Source: Novacetimonas maltaceti (lineage in GTDB: Bacteria; Pseudomonadota; Alphaproteobacteria; Acetobacterales; Acetobacteraceae). Taken from it: a DNA stretch of 64,000 nucleotides. Every line of letters begins with the position of its first letter. Positions within the stretch are counted from its first letter, which is position 1. The position numbers and the translations under genes are program-made. Location of the stretch: positions 1 through 64,000 of the forward strand of contig NZ_POTC01000005.1 of the NCBI RefSeq assembly GCF_002906255.1. Direction: 5' to 3'. Below are positions 7,641-32,118 of this stretch, in pieces. Below the pieces are notes generated by a model. It had not been told where the DNA came from and searched no databases. It saw only the letters and a program-made list of their open reading frames with translations.

Positions 7641-9536
7641 TCAGCGACGGCCGAACATCCGCTCCAGATCGCCTTTTTCCAGCTTCAGCCAGGTCGGCCG
7701 ACCATGTGAACAGGTGCCGGCGCGGGGGGTTTTCTCCATGTCCCGCAGCAGGGCGTTCATTTCCTCGTGTGTGAGGCGTCGGCCCGCGCGCACGCTGCCA
7801 TGGCAGGCCATGCGCGCGATGATCGCATCCAGCCGCCCGTCGATCGCCTGCGCCTGCGCGGGGGCGAGCAGTTCATCTTCGGCCAGCTCCTCCGCTAGGT
7901 CGCGCAGCATCGCCGCCGCGTCCCCACCGCCCAGCAGCGCGGGCACGGTGCGCACCATCACGGCATCGCCGCCAAAGGCATCGACCTCGAGTCCCAGCGC
8001 CGACAGCGTATCGGCAAAGGACACCAGCAGGTCGGCCTGCCCGCGGGGCATGTTCACCACTTCGGGCAGGAGCAGCCGCTGCGCACGGACCTCGCCCCCC
8101 AGATACTGCGCGCGCAGCCGTTCATGGGTCAGGCGCTCATGCGCTGCATGCTGGTCCACCAGAACCAGTTCCCCGCGTGCCGTCTGGGCAAGGATATAGG
8201 TGCCCAGAACCTGCGCCACGGCCGCGCCAAGGGGAAAATCGGCTGCCGCTTCCTCATGGGACTCGGGCCGGGGCGTTGCGGGGATGTCCGCTTCGGACCA
8301 TGTGACGGCACGCCGCGCGCCCGGTGCGGCATCCACCAGCGGCAGCCGGCGTTCGGCAACCCCTTCGGGCATGGCTGCCGCCACGTCCGGCATGGCGGGG
8401 GATGGCACCTGATATGCCGCTGTCTCGCGCCCGGGGGACGGAGGCGCGGTTTCCGGTGGGTACCAGATGCGCGCGCCCCCGCTGCCGCGTGACTGCAACA
8501 GGCCGGGCCGCACGCCCGCCACGCCCGCGCCGATTCCCAGGGCCCGGCCCAGCGACCCGATGACCAGTGCCCGCACGGCCGCCGCATCGGCATAACGCAG
8601 TTCGGTCTTGGCGGGATGGACGTTCACGTCCACCTGCTCGGGCGGGATCTGCAATGACAGGGCGACAACGGCATGGCGGCCATGTTCCATGACATTGCGA
8701 TAGGCCACGCGCACCGCCGTGCGCAGCACCGGGTCCACCACCGGGCGCCCGTTGACCAGAAGCAACTGCCCGTTGGCCGTCGCGCGATGCACCGATGGCG
8801 CACAGATATAGCCCGACAGGCGCAGGTCGCCGCGCTCCCCCTCCACCGGGATCAGGCCGTCGGCCTGCCCCGCGTCAAGGATGGCCGCCGCCCGCGCCGC
8901 CATGTCCTGCGCCGGCAGATCAAGGACCACGCGCTGGTCGAACTGCAGGCGGAAGGCGACATGCGGGGCCGACAGGGCAAGGCGACGGACCGTATTTTCC
9001 GCATGACCCGATTCCACGCGCGCGCTCTTGAGGAACTTGCGCCGCGCGGGCGTGGCGAAGAACAGGTCCTCCACCACCACACGGGTGCCCGCGACCCCGG
9101 CACAGGGGCGTGGTTCCTCCACCCGGCCGCCTTCCACGCGGATCGACCATGCGGTGGGCGCGCCATGCGTGCGTGAGGTCACACTCAGCCGTGCGGCCGC
9201 GCCGATCGACGGCAGCGCTTCCCCGCGAAAGCCAAGGGTCGAGATCCGCACCAGCGTCTCGTCCGACAGCTTGGATGTGCAGTGGCGCTCCACCGCAAGG
9301 CGCAGGTCCTCCGGCGTCATGCCGCACCCGTCGTCGGTCACCTCAATCCGTTCAATCCCGCCCTGCTGCAGGTGGACCGAAATCCGCCGCGCCCCGGAAT
9401 CAAGCGCATTTTCCACAAGTTCCTTCAGCGCCGCCGCCGGACGTTCGATCACTTCGCCCGCCGCGATGCGGTTGACGACCTGTTCGGACAGGCGACGGAT
9501 CACGGGACGATCCGGGGATGGGGAATGTTCGGTCAT
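7641..9536 (-). CDS. mutL: DNA mismatch repair protein MutL
   Basis: MutL couples mismatch recognition by MutS to strand removal. The N-terminal GHKL ATPase is clear (IAAGEVIERPA, ELVENALDSGA, DDGCGM, GFRGEALPSI). The C-terminal domain contains DQHAAHERLTHE, which fits the DQHA(X)2E(X)4E endonuclease motif, so this MutL probably nicks DNA itself, as expected where MutH is absent. The start is uncertain: I give the ATG that reads MTEHSPSP, but an in-frame ATG at 9566 has an AAAGGTGG site upstream. nuoM follows about 150 bases downstream. Confidence 0.95.
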   Translation of the reverse strand: MTEHSPSPDRPVIRRLSEQVVNRIAAGEVIERPAAALKELVENALDSGARRISVHLQQGGIERIEVTDDGCGMTPEDLRLAVERHCTSKLSDETLVRISTLGFRGEALPSIGAAARLSVTSRTHGAPTAWSIRVEGGRVEEPRPCAGVAGTRVVVEDLFFATPARRKFLKSARVESGHAENTVRRLALSAPHVAFRLQFDQRVVLDLPAQDMAARAAAILDAGQADGLIPVEGERGDLRLSGYICAPSVHRATANGQLLLVNGRPVVDPVLRTAVRVAYRNVMEHGRHAVVALSLQIPPEQVDVNVHPAKTELRYADAAAVRALVIGSLGRALGIGAGVAGVRPGLLQSRGSGGARIWYPPETAPPSPGRETAAYQVPSPAMPDVAAAMPEGVAERRLPLVDAAPGARRAVTWSEADIPATPRPESHEEAAADFPLGAAVAQVLGTYILAQTARGELVLVDQHAAHERLTHERLRAQYLGGEVRAQRLLLPEVVNMPRGQADLLVSFADTLSALGLEVDAFGGDAVMVRTVPALLGGGDAAAMLRDLAEELAEDELLAPAQAQAIDGRLDAIIARMACHGSVRAGRRLTHEEMNALLRDMEKTPRAGTCSHGRPTWLKLEKGDLERMFGRR

Positions 9537-9618
9537 GGCGGCATCATGAACGCCCGCCTTACCCATCGCCACCTTTATGCGGCGGAAGGGCCGGCCGGCC
9601 TTTCAGGTCAGGAACGAC

Positions 9619-9641
9619 CGGGCCGGGAGGGACCCGGCCCG
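9619..9641. terminator. Terminator-like hairpin
   Basis: CGGGCCGGG (9619-9627) pairs with CCCGGCCCG (9633-9641) over a 5-base loop, just past the stop of the minus-strand lipoprotein gene. There is no long T run, so termination efficiency is uncertain. Confidence 0.5.
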
Positions 9642-9657
9642 TCCTTCATGACGGGGA

Positions 9658-10185
9658 TTATTTCTTGGACGGTGCGGCGACGGTCGGGGTCGCGCCCTGA
9701 GTCAGGTTGCGGCCCAGCGCCGAATCCTCGCGCAGGCGGGCATTCTCGGCCTTTGCATTGACCACGCTGCCCGCGCCACCGCCATGCCAGAACATCAGGC
9801 GATCGACAAAGCTGGACCCCGCCTTGCCCAGTTCGCCGTTATCCGGTGCATTGGAGGCTTCCCTGGCCTCCCCCACCAGCGCGGTCTGGCCGGGGCTGTC
9901 ATCGCCATACGTCCCCTGCAGCGCGACATTGGGCGACAGGGTTTCGAGCGCCTGCATGCGCGGGTTGGAATCCTGCGCGCGCTGGACCGCGACACTGCTG
10001 GGCGCGCCAAGTTCGTCGGACGGTGGCATCGACAGGGGCGTGCGGGTCGTGACGGTATATTCGTCAGGCATGCTGCGTTCGAGGCCGAACGCGCGTGAAA
10101 CATCCCCCCCCGAGCAGCCGGTCAGGGAAAGACCACCCGTGGTGACCAGCGCAAGAGTAAGGGTTCTGAAAGCCGTGGATGCCAT
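9658..10185 (-). CDS. DUF3035-type (BamF-like) outer-membrane lipoprotein
   Basis: The 175-residue protein starts at the ATG at 10185 (AAGAGG upstream), has a hydrophobic signal, and carries the lipobox LTGC. Directly after the acyl site comes PDEYTVTTRTPLSMPPS, the hallmark of the alphaproteobacterial DUF3035 family, which is associated with the beta-barrel assembly machine. The remainder is low complexity and probably flexible. It lies immediately downstream of lspA, the peptidase that would process its own signal, and may share that transcript. Confidence 0.75.
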   Translation of the reverse strand: MASTAFRTLTLALVTTGGLSLTGCSGGDVSRAFGLERSMPDEYTVTTRTPLSMPPSDELGAPSSVAVQRAQDSNPRMQALETLSPNVALQGTYGDDSPGQTALVGEAREASNAPDNGELGKAGSSFVDRLMFWHGGGAGSVVNAKAENARLREDSALGRNLTQGATPTVAAPSKK

Positions 10186-10242
10186 GATTCGCCTCTTACC
10201 GCCCCTGCAACAGTTAGACAAGCACCGCTTTGACATTCTGTC

Positions 10243-10749
10243 CTATCCCCTGTCGCGATCGAGAAGATTATCAATGATCAGGACGGCCACGCCGCAGTCG
10301 ATCGCCGCATCGGCCAGGTTGAATACCGGCCACGACCACCCGTAGGCATGCAGGTGCACGAAATCCACCACCGCCCCGAACTGCAGCCGGTCGATGACAT
10401 TGCCCACGGCGCCACCCATGATCGCGCCCAGCGCACCCGCCACCCACGGCCGCGGCGTGCGCGCCGCCCACAGGCCCAGCAGCACGACAATGAACAGCGC
10501 CACGACCGAGAAGATGATGCGCCCGGCACTGCCCGCGCCACCCAGCATCCCGAACGTGATGGCGTGGTTCCACACCATGGTGAAATTGAGCCCCGGCATC
10601 AGGGCGACGCTCTGTTTGTCCGGCAGGTCGTAGCCGTGGAGCATCCAGTGCTTGCTCCACTGGTCAAGGGCTAGGACGAGGCAGAAGAACAGGACCGTCC
10701 AGCCCACCCTGCTGGCCCTGCGCCGACGTCGCGGCGAAGGCTCCAGCAT
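10243..10749 (-). CDS. lspA: Lipoprotein signal peptidase (signal peptidase II)
   Basis: LspA cleaves diacylated prolipoproteins in the inner membrane. It has four predicted membrane segments and both catalytic aspartates, in GNVIDRLQFGAVVDF and FNLADAAID. The start at 10749 is favoured because AGGA lies 7 bases upstream; an ATG at 10764 is the alternative. Either start lies 12-27 bases past the ileS stop, so the two genes are co-transcribed, the classical ileS-lspA arrangement. Confidence 0.93.
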   Translation of the reverse strand: MLEPSPRRRRRASRVGWTVLFFCLVLALDQWSKHWMLHGYDLPDKQSVALMPGLNFTMVWNHAITFGMLGGAGSAGRIIFSVVALFIVVLLGLWAARTPRPWVAGALGAIMGGAVGNVIDRLQFGAVVDFVHLHAYGWSWPVFNLADAAIDCGVAVLIIDNLLDRDRG

Positions 10750-10775
10750 GCCAGATCCTGACATGACGGACGAAC

Positions 10776-13649
10776 TCACGCCCCGCCCTGCACCACGTCC
10801 GCGCACCGCAGGCACAGTTGCGGATGGGCCGCCACGGTGCCGACTTCCTCCAGCACCTTCCAGCAGCGCGCGCATTTGTGCCCCGCCGCCGCGCGGATGA
10901 CCGGCCCGCCATGCGCAGCGCCCTGCGCATCGGTGGGAGTGTCGAGATAGATCGAAGCACTCCCCGCCTCGATCTCCACGTCAACCTTCGAGACGATCGC
11001 CAGTTCGCACCAGTCCACCTCGCCAAAGGCCGCGGCCTCGTCTTCCGACAGGGGCAGCGTCACCGCCGCCTGCAGCGACGACCCCACCACGCCGTCGCGG
11101 CGCGCGGCCTCGATCTCGGTCGTGATGATGCGCCGCACCCCGCGCAGCGTGGCCCAGCGATCCTCCAGCGCGGGCTGGTGCCACTGCGCCGGAAGGTCGG
11201 GGAAGGGCTGCAGGTGGATGCTCTGCGTATTGCCCGGCCGCGCCAGCCACGCTTCCTCCGCCGTGAAGACCAGCACCGGGGCCAGCCACGCGCACAGGCA
11301 GCGGTGCAGGTGGTCCAGCACCGTGCGCGCCGCGCGCCGCTTCAGGCTGCTGGCGGCGTCGCAGTAGATCGTGTCCTTGCGCACGTCGAAATAGAACGCC
11401 GAAAGGTCGGCCGCGCAGAACCCATGCAGGGCGGGATAGACGCCCACCCATTCATGCGTCTCCACCGCGCGGGCCACCAGGCCGCCCAGTTCGCACATGC
11501 GATGCAGGACCCAGCGTTCCAGTTCCGGCAGGTCGTCATAGGCGACGCGCTCTTCCTCGGTAAATCCGTCAAGCGCGCCGAGCAGCCAGCGCAGCGTGTT
11601 GCGCAGGCGGCGGTAAAGCTCGCCCTGCTGCTTGAGGATGTCCTTGCCGATGCGCAGGTCCTCGTTGGTGTCGGAATTCATGACCCACAGGCGCAGGATG
11701 TCGGCACCCAGCGAGTCATTGACATCCTGCGGCGCGATGACATTGCCCAGCGACTTGGACATCTTGCGGCCCTGCTCATCAAGGACAAAGCCGTTGGTCA
11801 CCAGCGCGCGGAACGGGGCGACGCCCTTCGTCCCCACGCTTTCGAGCAGCGAGGACTGGAACCAGCCACGATGCTGGTCCGACCCTTCGAGGTAGACATC
11901 GGCGGGGAACGGCATGTCGCCATGGCCCAGCACGAAGGCATGGGTGGAGCCACTTTCGAACCACACGTCGACGATGTCGAACACCTGCTCGTAATCGTCG
12001 GGGTTGCGCCCTTCGCCAAGGAAGCGCGACGCGGGCGAGGAATACCACGCATCCGCGCCCTCGGCCGCAAACGCATCGACCACGCGCTTCATCACGGCGG
12101 CGTCGCGCAGGACCTCGCCCGTGCGCTTTTCCACGAACACGGCAATGGGCACGCCCCATGCGCGCTGGCGGCTGATGCACCAGTCGGGACGTCCCTCCAC
12201 CATGGAGGTCAAGCGGTTGCGCGACTGCGCGGGGACGAACGTCACGTCGTCAAGCGCCCCGAGCGCGCGTTGCCGCAGCGCGCCTTCGCCATCCATGCGG
12301 ATGAACCATTGCGGCGTCGCGCGATAGATGATCGGCGCGCGCGAACGCCACGAATGCGGGTAGGAATGGACCAACGTGGTGCGCGCCACCAGCCCGGCCG
12401 GGGCCTGCCCGGCGCTGGCCGCGCGGCGCATGACCTCCTCCAGCGCGCTGCATACGGGTTCGGCCGCCTTGAAGACATGGCCACCCGCGAACAGCGGCAC
12501 CCAGTCGGCATAGCGCCCGTCATCCATGACCAGTTCGGTGATCTCCAGCCCGTGCTGGCGGCCAAGGTTGAAGTCGTCCTCGCCATGCGCGGGGGCGGTA
12601 TGGACAAGGCCCGTGCCCGCCTCGGTCGTGACATGCGCGCCCGGCAGCATCGGCACGTCGAAATCATAGCCCTGCCCGCGCAGCGGATGGGCGCACACGG
12701 CCCCCTCCAGCGCGCTGCCCGGCAGGGTATAGAGGACATGATGCGCGCTGACGCCTGCGGCCGTGCAGAACTGCTCGATCAGGTCCTCGGCCACCAGCAC
12801 CTTCGATTCCGGCTCCAGCAGGGCGCCGTCGGCCACGTCATCGACCCGCACCACGGCATAGGTGATGTCCGGGCCATAGGCGATGGCGCGGTTGGCCGGG
12901 ATGGTCCACGGCGTCGTGGTCCAGATGACCGCCGACACATCGTCGAGCGCATGGGCCGGGGTGGGATCATGGATGACGGGGAAGGCCACATGGATCGCGG
13001 TGGATTCATGGTCGCGATATTCGATCTCCGCCTCGGCCAGGGCGGTCTTTTCCACCGGGCTCCACATCACCGGGCGCAGGCCGCGATACAGCAGGCCGTT
13101 GAGCAGGAACTTGCCGATCTCCCCCGCGATCGCCGCCTCGGAGGAGAAATCCATCGTGGCGTAGCGGCGCGCCCATTCCGCCTGCACGCCAAGGCGGCGG
13201 AATTCGGCGGCCTGGATATCCAGCCATTTCTGCGCATAGGCGCGGCATTCGGCGCGGAACTGCAGGACGGGCACGCTGTCCTTGTCCTGCCCGCGCTTGC
13301 GGTATTCCTCCTCGATCTTCCATTCGATCGGCAGGCCGTGGCAGTCCCAGCCCGGCACGTAATGGATGCCATAGCCCGACATGCGGTGCGCGCGGTTGAT
13401 GACGTCCTTGAGGATCTTGTTCAGGGCATGGCCGATATGGAGGTGGCCGTTCGCATACGGAGGGCCATCATGCAGCATGAAGACCTGACGCCCCTGCGCC
13501 TGCGCGAACAGGCTGTCGTCAAGCTTTTCCGCGGCCCAGCGCTCCAGCATCTCGGGCTCCCGCTTCGGCAGGCTGCCGCGCATGGGAAAGGAGGTGGTGG
13601 GAAGAAACACCGTCTCCCGATAGAGATCCTGTGGTTTTGACTCGGTCAT
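10776..13649 (-). CDS. ileS: Isoleucyl-tRNA synthetase
   Basis: This class I aminoacyl-tRNA synthetase charges tRNA-Ile. The 957-residue protein has the HIGH motif in ANGHLHIGHA, the KMSKS motif in GRKMSKSLGN, the connective editing domain between them, and a C-terminal zinc-binding CARCW...CLRC element. The start (MTESKPQD, ATG at 13649) fits homologues; the upstream extension to 13700 looks non-coding. It heads the ileS-lspA unit. Confidence 0.97.
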   Translation of the reverse strand: MTESKPQDLYRETVFLPTTSFPMRGSLPKREPEMLERWAAEKLDDSLFAQAQGRQVFMLHDGPPYANGHLHIGHALNKILKDVINRAHRMSGYGIHYVPGWDCHGLPIEWKIEEEYRKRGQDKDSVPVLQFRAECRAYAQKWLDIQAAEFRRLGVQAEWARRYATMDFSSEAAIAGEIGKFLLNGLLYRGLRPVMWSPVEKTALAEAEIEYRDHESTAIHVAFPVIHDPTPAHALDDVSAVIWTTTPWTIPANRAIAYGPDITYAVVRVDDVADGALLEPESKVLVAEDLIEQFCTAAGVSAHHVLYTLPGSALEGAVCAHPLRGQGYDFDVPMLPGAHVTTEAGTGLVHTAPAHGEDDFNLGRQHGLEITELVMDDGRYADWVPLFAGGHVFKAAEPVCSALEEVMRRAASAGQAPAGLVARTTLVHSYPHSWRSRAPIIYRATPQWFIRMDGEGALRQRALGALDDVTFVPAQSRNRLTSMVEGRPDWCISRQRAWGVPIAVFVEKRTGEVLRDAAVMKRVVDAFAAEGADAWYSSPASRFLGEGRNPDDYEQVFDIVDVWFESGSTHAFVLGHGDMPFPADVYLEGSDQHRGWFQSSLLESVGTKGVAPFRALVTNGFVLDEQGRKMSKSLGNVIAPQDVNDSLGADILRLWVMNSDTNEDLRIGKDILKQQGELYRRLRNTLRWLLGALDGFTEEERVAYDDLPELERWVLHRMCELGGLVARAVETHEWVGVYPALHGFCAADLSAFYFDVRKDTIYCDAASSLKRRAARTVLDHLHRCLCAWLAPVLVFTAEEAWLARPGNTQSIHLQPFPDLPAQWHQPALEDRWATLRGVRRIITTEIEAARRDGVVGSSLQAAVTLPLSEDEAAAFGEVDWCELAIVSKVDVEIEAGSASIYLDTPTDAQGAAHGGPVIRAAAGHKCARCWKVLEEVGTVAAHPQLCLRCADVVQGGA

Positions 13650-28346: not shown

Positions 28347-29504
28347 ATGCACATGGCCCGCCGTCTTTCCCGCCTGTCTGTCATCGCGCCGCTGGCGCTG
28401 GCCTGTGTGCTGCCGTCCCGCCATGGCGCACGGGCGCAGGATGCCGCGCCCGTGGCCGCAGCCCCCCCGCCCGCAGCGCCATCGCTGTTCGCGCCGCCCG
28501 TGCCACCCGTGGTGTCCTCCGGCCCGCTGACCTTCGCGCCGCTGGTGCGGATGGTGGGAGCCGCGGTCGTGAACATCGCCGTCACCCAGGACGTGCACGG
28601 ACAACGCAACGGGCAGCGCGTGCTGCCGAGTGTCCGGGGCACCCCGTTCGAGCACAAATTCCGCGAACGCATGCGTTCACATGGGGAGGAGATGCTGGGC
28701 GCGGGATCGGGATTCGTGATCGACCCGGACGGGATCATCGTCACCAACACGCATGTCGTGGGGGATGCGGACCATATTACCGTCTCGCTCGTCGATGGGA
28801 CGGAACTGCCCGCGCACCTGATCGGCAGCGACGACCTGACGGATATCGCCGTCATCAAGGTGCAGCCACCGCATCCCCTGCCCTTCGTGCGGTGGGGTGA
28901 CAGCAGGCTGGTGAATATCGGCGACTGGATCATGGCGGCGGGCAACCCGTTCGGGCTGGGGTCATCGGTGACGGCGGGCATCGTCTCCGCCCGGGGACGC
29001 GATATCGGCACCAGCCCGTTCGATGACTTCCTCCAACTCGACGCGCCGATCAATCCGGGCAATTCGGGCGGGCCGTCCTTCAACCTCAGCGGGCAGGTGG
29101 TCGCGCTCAATACGGCCATCGTCTCGCCCACCGGCGGGTCGGTGGGGATCGGTTTCGGCATCCCGTCGGAAATCGTCGCCCCCATTGTCGAGGAACTGCG
29201 CCGCAACGGGCATATCGACCGCGGCTGGCTGGGCGTGACCCTGACGGATGGCGGCGACACCCATGTGCCGGGGGTGGAGATCGTGGGCATCGACCGTGGC
29301 GGCCCGGCCATGAAGGCGGGGCTGCATATCGGCGATTACATCACCGCCGTGAATGGCGAACCCATCGACAGTTCGCGCATGCTGATCCGCTCCATCGCGG
29401 CGAAACGCCCGGCCTCCACCGTCATGCTGCACATCCGCCGCCATCGCGAGGCGCTGAGCATCCCGGCCACCGTCGGCTTCCGGCCGGATGATACGGATGA
29501 CTGA
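28347..29504 (+). CDS. Trypsin-like periplasmic serine protease, HtrA/Deg family
   Basis: The 385-residue protein has a signal peptide, a trypsin-like domain and one C-terminal PDZ domain, so it is DegS-like in size but secreted. The catalytic triad is visible: His in VTNTHVVGD, Asp in DDLTDIAVIK, Ser in NPGNSGGPSF. The PDZ domain includes GGPAMKAGLHIGDYITAVNG. It probably degrades or senses misfolded envelope proteins. Two ATGs (28347, 28353) are possible starts. Normal GC content ends at its stop codon. Confidence 0.92.
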   Translation: MHMARRLSRLSVIAPLALACVLPSRHGARAQDAAPVAAAPPPAAPSLFAPPVPPVVSSGPLTFAPLVRMVGAAVVNIAVTQDVHGQRNGQRVLPSVRGTPFEHKFRERMRSHGEEMLGAGSGFVIDPDGIIVTNTHVVGDADHITVSLVDGTELPAHLIGSDDLTDIAVIKVQPPHPLPFVRWGDSRLVNIGDWIMAAGNPFGLGSSVTAGIVSARGRDIGTSPFDDFLQLDAPINPGNSGGPSFNLSGQVVALNTAIVSPTGGSVGIGFGIPSEIVAPIVEELRRNGHIDRGWLGVTLTDGGDTHVPGVEIVGIDRGGPAMKAGLHIGDYITAVNGEPIDSSRMLIRSIAAKRPASTVMLHIRRHREALSIPATVGFRPDDTDD

Positions 29505-29556
29505 GTGGGGTGTTTTTGATGGCGAACAGCCTGAGGAAGCGCACTGCCTGTTACAA

Positions 29557-29646
29557 GGTAAAATGAACCGGAAGCAGATATTCATTCTGGTAAAATTCCA
29601 AATGGCCTGACTCTCTTTTGACGCCATTCCCATTTGGCTGGTAAAA
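29557..29646. repeat. Short direct and inverted repeats upstream of the orphan gene
   Basis: CTGGTAAAA occurs at 29587-29595 and 29638-29646, and the core GGTAAAA also at 29557-29563. Between the two full copies, CCAAATGG (29598-29605) pairs with CCATTTGG (29630-29637). The arrangement looks like an operator, or the remnant of an insertion edge; nothing in the window shows which. Confidence 0.5.
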
Positions 29647-29727
29647 CTTCAGAAGCTGACGCTCTTCGGCGCACGCAGAATTACAGCAAGTATTGACACG
29701 GATTGAAAGATCGTGCGGATTACATAG

Positions 29728-31200
29728 ATGCAACCATTTGCAACCGAATTTCCTGTTAAACACTCAGAAAATAAAGCGGCCTTCCCTGCTGAAGTAGTCG
29801 CCTGGATCAAGGGGATACGGAACAGCGAGGTCCTGACGGCGGCATCTGAACGCGAGTTTGATGGCGAAAACGTTTATCTTGTCGCTGGGTCTGGTGAAGA
29901 ACTGCGGATGCGGGCCCTTAAGCACGAAAGTGACTGGGTGGCGATTGGGTTCCAGCATGACATGCCAGACGATCAAGGCCGCATCTGGCGTACGGAAGCG
30001 GTACTTCGGCGCAGTAAAGACGATACAGACCAAGACCTCATCCGGTTTAGGACCCAGTGCCTAGCAAAGCGCCCCGGCGCATTTTTGGAAACGCCTAAAA
30101 AACCATATCTCGTAAAAGCGCTTCTGAAAGACAACTGGGGAGGTTTCGACAAAGACATCGAAGTCTGCGATGAACCACTATGGCTTGAGGACAACGGCGA
30201 CGATCTAGCGTTGGCCAAACTTATCTTAGATGGCCATGCTACCAAATGGTTACCTGTAGTATATGTATCAGCCACCGGAAGGAACCGATGGCGTCTTACT
30301 GAAGATCAGATTAATAAACTCGCTTACGATCTCGGTGGTGTCGCTCATGTCGTAGTAGAACCGAGCAGAAATTTCTCAATCCGTCTGAAAGACGCCAGTG
30401 ACGGTCGGAACGTTTATAATGGTGCGCTAGGCATCGCGATGCCGCATCACGGTTTCATCCGTAAATTCTTTCTTGGACGTCAGTTCGGAGAAGTCACCGA
30501 CATTACCGAAATCGTCCGGAGCACCGCCACTCGGTTGCGAGGGTTCATGCCTTCGGTAGGATGGGATTGGACCGAGTTGCAAGAGCATGCGCTAAGAGAT
30601 CAGCGCACTGCCCTTCGCGATGCAATTTCTCAAGGCGAAGCAGATCAGCTTTTCGATGATTTCACCAAGCAATTAAGTGACTTACAGGAAGAAAACCGGA
30701 GACTGACAGAGCAGCTGAATTCGCAGGCTGTCATAGACATCACTAAGGAAGAACAGGATTCAGGCATATTCCGAAGCATTGGTAAGGAAATCTACCCTGG
30801 CGAAATTACGGATCGACTTCGCTTGGCGGCACAGACTGCCCTGTCAGTTGCCGAGGCTAATGGCATCGACGACCGTACGACTGCTGTGTGGAAAAAAATA
30901 CTCAACCACGTCCGGCGCTCACCTGCGCTAGACGAACTGCTTGCCGACATTAGACGCGCAACGAAAGATCCCAAGCGAATGGCAGATGCGCTTACGTCAC
31001 TTTTGCAACGTCACGGATACCATGCCAAGTCGGAAAACAAACACATTCGACTAGAACCCGATGAGGGCTATGAGGGGCTACAGAATCTTACCCTCCCGAA
31101 AACGCCTAGCGATCTCCGCGCTACCATGAACCAGCGTAAGCAGATCGAGCGAACACTGGGAATTAACAAAATTCCACAAAATGTGGATACAGAAAGTTAA
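29728..31200 (+). CDS. Unrecognised 490-residue protein, probably horizontally acquired
   Basis: I do not recognise this gene. It is much richer in A/T than its neighbours, with AT-rich flanks, which points to transfer. The protein is soluble with no signal or membrane segment. Visible parts: a mixed alpha/beta N-terminal half with LPVVYVSATGRNRW (175-188), LAYDLGGVAHVVVEPSRNFS (198-217) and NVYNGALGIAMP (228-239); a probable coiled coil at about 298-335; a helical region; and a C-terminal module at about 415-480 (LLQRHGYHAKSENKHIRLEP, LTLPKTPSDLRATMN) that resembles HicA/dsRBD-like folds. It stands alone, between htrA and a two-component system. Confidence 0.85.
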   Translation: MQPFATEFPVKHSENKAAFPAEVVAWIKGIRNSEVLTAASEREFDGENVYLVAGSGEELRMRALKHESDWVAIGFQHDMPDDQGRIWRTEAVLRRSKDDTDQDLIRFRTQCLAKRPGAFLETPKKPYLVKALLKDNWGGFDKDIEVCDEPLWLEDNGDDLALAKLILDGHATKWLPVVYVSATGRNRWRLTEDQINKLAYDLGGVAHVVVEPSRNFSIRLKDASDGRNVYNGALGIAMPHHGFIRKFFLGRQFGEVTDITEIVRSTATRLRGFMPSVGWDWTELQEHALRDQRTALRDAISQGEADQLFDDFTKQLSDLQEENRRLTEQLNSQAVIDITKEEQDSGIFRSIGKEIYPGEITDRLRLAAQTALSVAEANGIDDRTTAVWKKILNHVRRSPALDELLADIRRATKDPKRMADALTSLLQRHGYHAKSENKHIRLEPDEGYEGLQNLTLPKTPSDLRATMNQRKQIERTLGINKIPQNVDTES

Positions 31201-31437
31201 AATAAGGCATGAAAATTTCCACTGCAATTAACCCAAATTAAGTTTCGAATACTACAATACCATTCTAGAAATATTATTTATATATCCCTATCTCTGGCAA
31301 GAAAGTAAAAACTCCCCCTTAACGCCACGGCCACCACTTCACATGTAACATCGGTAATGTCGTCGTGGCGCATCTGCTCTGGCCTTGTTGCGCGACGGGC
31401 GTAGAATGATGTCTGGACTGCCGATCAGTGAGGTAAC

Positions 31438-32118
31438 GTGCATATTCTTGTGGTGGAAGACGATCCGACGGTTCGCAATTTCGTGGCCAAGGGCCTGCGT
31501 GAGGCAGGACACCTGACCGAACTGACCGACAATGGCAAGGACGGCCTGTTCCTTGCGGTGAGCGAGAAATTCGACCTCATCATCCTTGACCGGATGCTGC
31601 CGGGGGGGATCGACGGGTTGCGCCTGCTGGAGACGATCCGCGCACAGAACAACACGACACCCGTGCTCCTGCTTTCGGCACTGGCAGATGTGGATGACCG
31701 CGTGCAGGGCCTCAAGGCGGGGGGCGACGACTATGTGACCAAGCCGTTCGCGTTCAGCGAACTGCTCGCCCGGGTGGAGGCGCTCGGCCGGCGCGGGCGC
31801 ACCGAACAGGCGCCGCAGACCAAACTGGTCGTCGCGGACCTGGAGATCGACCTGCTGTCGCGCACCGTCCGCCGCGCGGGGCAGCGCATCGACCTGCAAC
31901 CGCGCGAATTCCGGCTGCTGGAATACCTCACCCGCCATGCGGGACAGGTGGTGACGCGGACCATGCTGCTCGAAGGGGTGTGGGATTACCATTTCGACCC
32001 GCAGACCAACGTGATCGACGTCCACGTCTCGCGCCTGCGCCAGAAGGTGGACAAGCCGTTCGGCGTGCCGCTGATCCACACCATCCGCAATGCGGGATAC
32101 ATGCTGCGTGCGGAATGA
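31438..32118 (+). CDS. OmpR/PhoB-family response regulator
   Basis: The receiver domain has the acidic pair VVEDD, the phospho-acceptor Asp51 in IILDRMLPG, and the lysine in DDYVTKPFA. The C-terminal winged helix (LQPREFRLLEYLTRHAGQVVTR, VDVHVSRLRQKVD-like segment) binds DNA. The GTG start at 31438 is preceded by GAGGT. The kinase gene follows 30 bases later, so the two form one operon. The sequence resembles heavy-metal or envelope-stress regulators, but the signal is unknown. Confidence 0.93.
   Translation: MHILVVEDDPTVRNFVAKGLREAGHLTELTDNGKDGLFLAVSEKFDLIILDRMLPGGIDGLRLLETIRAQNNTTPVLLLSALADVDDRVQGLKAGGDDYVTKPFAFSELLARVEALGRRGRTEQAPQTKLVVADLEIDLLSRTVRRAGQRIDLQPREFRLLEYLTRHAGQVVTRTMLLEGVWDYHFDPQTNVIDVHVSRLRQKVDKPFGVPLIHTIRNAGYMLRAE

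Follow-up and report, generated by a model that had tools for sequence, protein, structure and literature searches.

What is a solitary gene of low GC content doing between two conserved chromosomal genes, and how did it come to be there? The window we analyzed is a 64,000-nucleotide stretch of DNA (positions 1–64000 of contig C5, from a genome of 3.63 Mb), and it contains a 1,810-bp low-GC block with one intact gene. The first-pass annotation had described a stand-alone, low-GC gene with AT-rich flanks that was transferred into GC-rich DNA between htrA and a two-component system, and this description holds. GC content is 0.49 in the block and 0.51 in the gene, compared to 0.66 for the window, and the block has the lowest GC of all 1,810-bp windows sampled. 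Its edges were mapped by comparison with congeners that lack the gene, using the interval from htrA to the response regulator gene as the query against G073, G142 and G189. In G142, where the flanks are 94–95% identical, homology ends at window position 29504, which is the final base of the htrA stop codon, and restarts at position 31315. These same two points are only 23 bp apart in G073. The gap between htrA and the response regulator gene is filled in both G142 and G189 by a pair of genes (loci L092 and L093), named by eye as encoding a LysR-type regulator and a lipocalin-like secreted protein. No copy of this pair turned up when the rest of the window genome was searched. The foreign block takes the place of the native pair; its edges are sharp, and a search there gave no repeat of more than 8 bp.

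The gene was therefore acquired by transfer: the site is empty or replaced in three congeners, and relatives of the gene lie on prophages, satellites, plasmids and islands. We considered whether it could instead be a chromosomal stress or housekeeping gene of the host's bacterial family, as its position between htrA and a two-component system might suggest. This is very improbable, and we rejected it because it is contradicted by the congeners that lack the gene at this site. The gene is also rare: among the genomes sampled, 3 of 200 in the family and 3 of 385 in the class carry it, with the window genome counted in both totals. Most of its relatives are on mobile DNA. The stress system that the first-pass annotation offered as an alternative gained no support; the protein matched no housekeeping family, and its homologues occupy many different loci.

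The open reading frame is intact, with 490 codons and an ATG start. Homologues align along its entire length with 20 invariant columns, and the frame is therefore coding. It is the only gene in the insert, which has no HicB partner, and there is likewise no conserved partner beside the copies on a plasmid, in E. coli prophages or in solitary chromosomal positions, in agreement with a single stand-alone gene. TTGAC occurs exactly 35 nt upstream of the ATG in 20 of 41 homologous loci from distant hosts, including the window, and 34 nt before the start in one further locus; many of the remaining loci have a purine-rich, Shine-Dalgarno-like stretch there. From this spacing, the mRNA of the main clade is predicted to be leaderless.

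Table 1. Coordinates of the insertion, its flanking genes and the features of the inserted gene (window numbering).
Feature	Position	Strand	Basis
Foreign block replacing the congeners' LysR/lipocalin-like pair	29505..31314		Homology boundaries in G142, G189 and G073; GC 0.49 versus 0.66
Left flank: native htrA-type protease gene	28347..29504	+	ORF; conserved in congeners
Right flank: native response regulator gene	31438..32118	+	ORF; conserved in congeners
TTGACA, -35-like box, exactly 35 nt before ATG	29693..29698	+	TTGAC at -35 in 20/41 loci
Gene for 490-aa HEC-07-like, HicA-tailed protein	29728..31200	+	ORF with ATG start; full-length homologues
N-terminal beta-rich domain, residues 1-135, tentatively START/SRPBCC-like	29728..30132	+	Model pLDDT about 90; Foldseek; common to HEC-07
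Thioredoxin-like fold without catalytic cysteines, residues 148-272	30169..30543	+	VIA-align to 6i19
Long helices/coiled coil, residues 281-335	30568..30732	+	DSSP of model: H281-299, H302-335
Helical linker domain, residues 346-415	30763..30972	+	E359, R383 invariant
HicA-like (dsRBD) C-terminal domain, residues 418-478	30979..31161	+	PADLOC HicA-like profile; fold matches
H439 codon, proposed counterpart of catalytic HicA histidine	31042..31044	+	H kept in 27/28 relatives

An AlphaFold2 model of the whole protein (m27cfd54b64ff, built with a 30-member alignment) has a mean pLDDT of 87.6 and a pTM of 0.61. The N-terminal domain is only tentatively START/SRPBCC-like, based on a Foldseek match to 3f08 with an E-value of 2.4e-4 and low TM. 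The second domain aligns with 6i19 (VIA-align Z 10.7 over 106 residues at 2.7 Å) and contains the invariant residues Y179, S181, H207 and E211. C111 and C147 are the sole cysteines in the protein and neither is located at the active-site loop of this fold. We rejected a true redox thioredoxin, as there is no CxxC motif. Pfam and NCBIfam gave nothing meaningful for the protein; matches to KELK and similar coiled-coil families reflect low complexity. PDB sequence searches returned only coiled-coil and helical noise, and BFVD had no convincing match to the whole protein. The first-pass annotation had called the protein unrecognised, which is true for Pfam and NCBIfam and false for PADLOC, whose profiles match it. 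Its coiled coil is borne out by the model and its C-terminal HicA/dsRBD-type fold by the PADLOC HicA-like profile and by fold matches; the block that it saw as conserved (VVYVS...AHVVVEP...N.Y.G) turns out to be the core of the thioredoxin-like fold.

The C-terminal tail resembles HicA. The PADLOC HicA-like profile matches the window protein with an E-value of 5.7e-7 and also matches 24 of 28 relatives. When the C-terminal 139 residues were modeled alone, the pLDDT was 91.8 and the pTM 0.83, and six of the eight best VIA matches to this tail were HicA-type structures (5yrz, 1whz, 6g26, 4p78, 6hpb and 4c26). These matches are modest, with Z values of 3.5–6.1 over about 57 residues; the best was to 5yrz_B (Z 6.1, 56 residues, 2.1 Å). 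Because the matches agree on one small family and are joined by the PADLOC profile, the predicted HicA-like assignment is credible. HicA toxins need a histidine (His24/His28), which in one case has a glycine two residues ahead (PMC11594946). H439 could be the counterpart of this residue, and distant relatives read GKH at its position. In an hhalign comparison with the single HicA encoded in the genome, H439 pairs with the HicA histidine, in an alignment that is not significant (prob 2.8).

The protein thus shares with the HicA toxins of HicAB (PF07927) the HicA/dsRBD fold and a catalytic-type histidine, with the GKH of distant relatives corresponding to the G-x-H of HicA. In contrast to those toxins, it is not a small single-domain protein with a HicB partner: its tail is fused to approximately 410 other residues, and none of the 28 members matches Pfam HicA_toxin at E 0.05. 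The relation to HicA rests on the fold and on the PADLOC HicA-like profile. Two groups of phage proteins of unknown function, PHROG 2053 and PHROG 2089, match only the HicA-like tail (E 1.8e-8 and 9e-4); these are small profiles of 72 and 107 positions that lack the front half.

The front half is related to a different protein. HEC-07 (PADLOC-DB PDLC04158-04161; Hma-embedded candidate 7) is, like the window protein, a single-gene candidate defense protein, and its hmmscan profile matches the window protein at 4e-5 and relatives at up to 3.9e-15. A comparison profile built from five proteins found with HEC-07 aligns with residues 21–324 (hhalign prob 98.6, E 9.4e-16), the match ending at the coiled coil. 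The front halves are homologous, but the C-terminal ~190 residues of HEC-07 (about positions 360–553) are unmatched and belong to no Pfam family, whereas the HicA-like tail occupies this place in the window protein. There is also no Hma system beside the window gene, which has htrA and a two-component system as neighbors, and no Hma genes were recognized by eye beside the relatives inspected. We rejected plain HEC-07 membership because the C-terminus differs. The family is a HEC-type single-gene candidate variant, neither a plain HEC-07 nor a HicA member. Separately, locus L107 (1498–2610) encodes a 370-residue protein that has a HEC-07-type tail, lacks the front half of HEC-07 and belongs to no Pfam family. 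The HECs reportedly originate from Payne et al. 2024 (bioRxiv 10.1101/2024.01.29.577857). We found no published experiment on the present family in the literature, nor any paper giving the accessions of the E. coli or Klebsiella proteins or mentioning HEC-07 together with PADLOC. Several HECs, HEC-06 among them, have experimental antiviral activity (PMC12988326).

Relatives were drawn from genome contigs (40 loci), viral contigs, plasmids and E. coli genomes. They are sparse across Alphaproteobacteria, Enterobacteria and a few other groups, and lie mostly on mobile DNA such as prophages, satellites that encode capsids, islands and small plasmids; context counts are descriptive. In Rhodobacterales, the gene adjoins a DUF2190 head-decoration gene in 14 loci, a count that includes some elements seen twice in two collections. 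The Paracoccus and Ruegeria elements have the order integrase, regulators, primase, small and large terminase subunits, variable cargo, portal, protease-capsid, decoration protein and then the relative of the window gene, which is convergent and lies at the end of the element. PHROGs confirmed the gene families of the Paracoccus element, and no tail genes were seen in these two elements, both of which were traced to the other end. In the Ruegeria element, an intact tRNA-Met (CAU) stands immediately upstream of the gene, and the tRNA 3' end is repeated about 17.4 kb away, beyond the integrase; the Paracoccus element has a pair of tRNA 3'-end repeats separated by 16.8 kb. We found such tailless, capsid-encoding integrative elements of ~17 kb at tRNA-Met at G580:C11 24968–41827, at G582:C19 64408–81848 and in L056 with L101; their variable cargo lies between terminase and portal. 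They look like an alphaproteobacterial counterpart of capsid-forming PICIs (cf-PICIs), with which they share integrase, primase, terminase, portal and capsid genes and a lack of visible tail genes, at a size of ~17 kb, though this likeness is one of carriers and does not extend to the gene. The cf-PICIs listed so far come chiefly from Enterobacteriaceae and several groups of Firmicutes, with an average length of 14 kb (PMC10803314). A metagenome contig (L019, 1446–5118) has the order integrase, att repeat, gene, as would fit either a circular form of the element after excision or two copies in tandem.

Other hosts carry the gene in other vehicles. In all six E. coli lambdoid prophages examined, it lies on the opposite strand between ren and the ybcN/nin genes (ninB), and other E. 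coli strains carry it in an island that also encodes integrases and a DUF927 protein, at the end next to tRNA-Phe. The Klebsiella copy is on a 5.9-kb mobilizable ColRNAI plasmid, and recombinase-family genes are found no more than about 6 kb away at six further loci. The first-pass annotation had suggested checking homologue neighborhoods for defense genes or prophages, and we found prophages, satellites, islands and a plasmid, together with one clear defense island as judged by Pfam. In this Rhodopseudomonas locus (L026), the gene is immediately preceded by SIR2 and HerA genes, and downstream of it come a WYL regulator and then genes for patatin, a DncV-like cyclase, E2-ThiF and JAB (type II CBASS). 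Most alphaproteobacterial copies outside satellites, including the window copy, are among ordinary genes and not in defense islands.

These contexts bear on whether the gene serves its element instead of providing general immunity. It could act on the helper or resident phage, by satellite-helper interference or by controlling lysogeny or packaging, and the HicA-like domain would then bind one particular RNA. The gene keeps a constant place, beside the tRNA at the outer end of the satellite and within the early region of lambdoid prophages, which would agree with such a role. However, the gene is also present on a ColRNAI plasmid and in solitary chromosomal insertions that have no helper or packaging genes, and no second gene is common to the different contexts. 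We consider this explanation unlikely.

The first-pass annotation had also called the gene an orphan, which does not hold, as the family is dispersed. The window protein is closest to relatives from Aliihoeflea (69%) and Sphingomonas (67%, frame broken), with the Neoroseomonas copy more distant at 50%. A DNA-level relative of the Klebsiella copy is present in 34 of 5,426 E. coli genomes, always on the chromosome, and the gene is lower in GC than its flanks in all 18 loci measured. Two relatives searched against 50,697 phage records gave no match, which fits cargo of integrated elements without proving defense. Three Rhodobacter-type genomes (L039, L040 and L042, about 9000–11450) carry a diverged copy (31–36% identical) that immediately follows a gene identified by eye as thyX-like; this site is perhaps stably inherited. 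Copies are broken in L028, L033, L035, L041, L044 and L045, with assembly error possible for each. On a Citrobacter KPC plasmid (L007, 5644–6492), the gene is truncated to 849 bp next to an ISKpn6 transposase, indicating that it is dispensable there.

This decay is relevant to the possibility that the gene is a solitary toxin-like or addiction gene that maintains its mobile element, with the N-terminal half as a built-in antitoxin. The HicA-like fold with its retained histidine is compatible with that idea, and toxin-antitoxin genes are near some of the loci (TraY-like/RelE on L006, ParD in L044 and Phd/VapC in L005). Nevertheless, the insert has no separate antitoxin, and many decayed copies persist. 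We regard an addiction function as improbable, somewhat more so than service to the element.

We favor, with moderate confidence, the explanation that this is a mobile, self-contained, single-protein immunity gene with a HicA-like effector, acting in anti-phage defense or superinfection exclusion and present here as a solitary chromosomal insertion. What the computations establish is the mobility of the gene, its contexts, the domain architecture, the retained HicA-type histidine and the lack of a HicB partner. Homology to HEC-07, the Rhodopseudomonas defense island and the cargo positions in prophages and satellites make a defense role plausible. In such a protein, the front half that is common to HEC-07 (beta-rich START-like and cysteine-free thioredoxin-like domains) would most likely sense an infection cue as the trigger or keep the protein inactive, and the coiled coil would most likely oligomerize it. 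The C-terminal HicA-like domain would then bind RNA, or cleave it as an RNase through H439, thereby stopping phage or host translation. Since E. coli prophages contain intact relatives, such as L117:8788–10206, the immunity reading can be put to a direct test.

Should this reading hold, the known single-gene immunity proteins would gain a rare but widely distributed member that has a HicA-type effector and no partner antitoxin, and HEC-07-type candidates would be tied to satellites and prophages. It would also offer a way to find out what is sensed by the N-terminal module common to both. More tentatively, the family and HEC-07 may represent a class of single-protein immunity in which one conserved sensor module (START-like, cysteine-free thioredoxin-like and coiled coil) is combined with interchangeable toxin-type tails, HicA-like here and another in HEC-07. 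Such a class would be spread by satellites and prophages, and control of its toxin domain would be exerted in cis, with no separate antitoxin involved.
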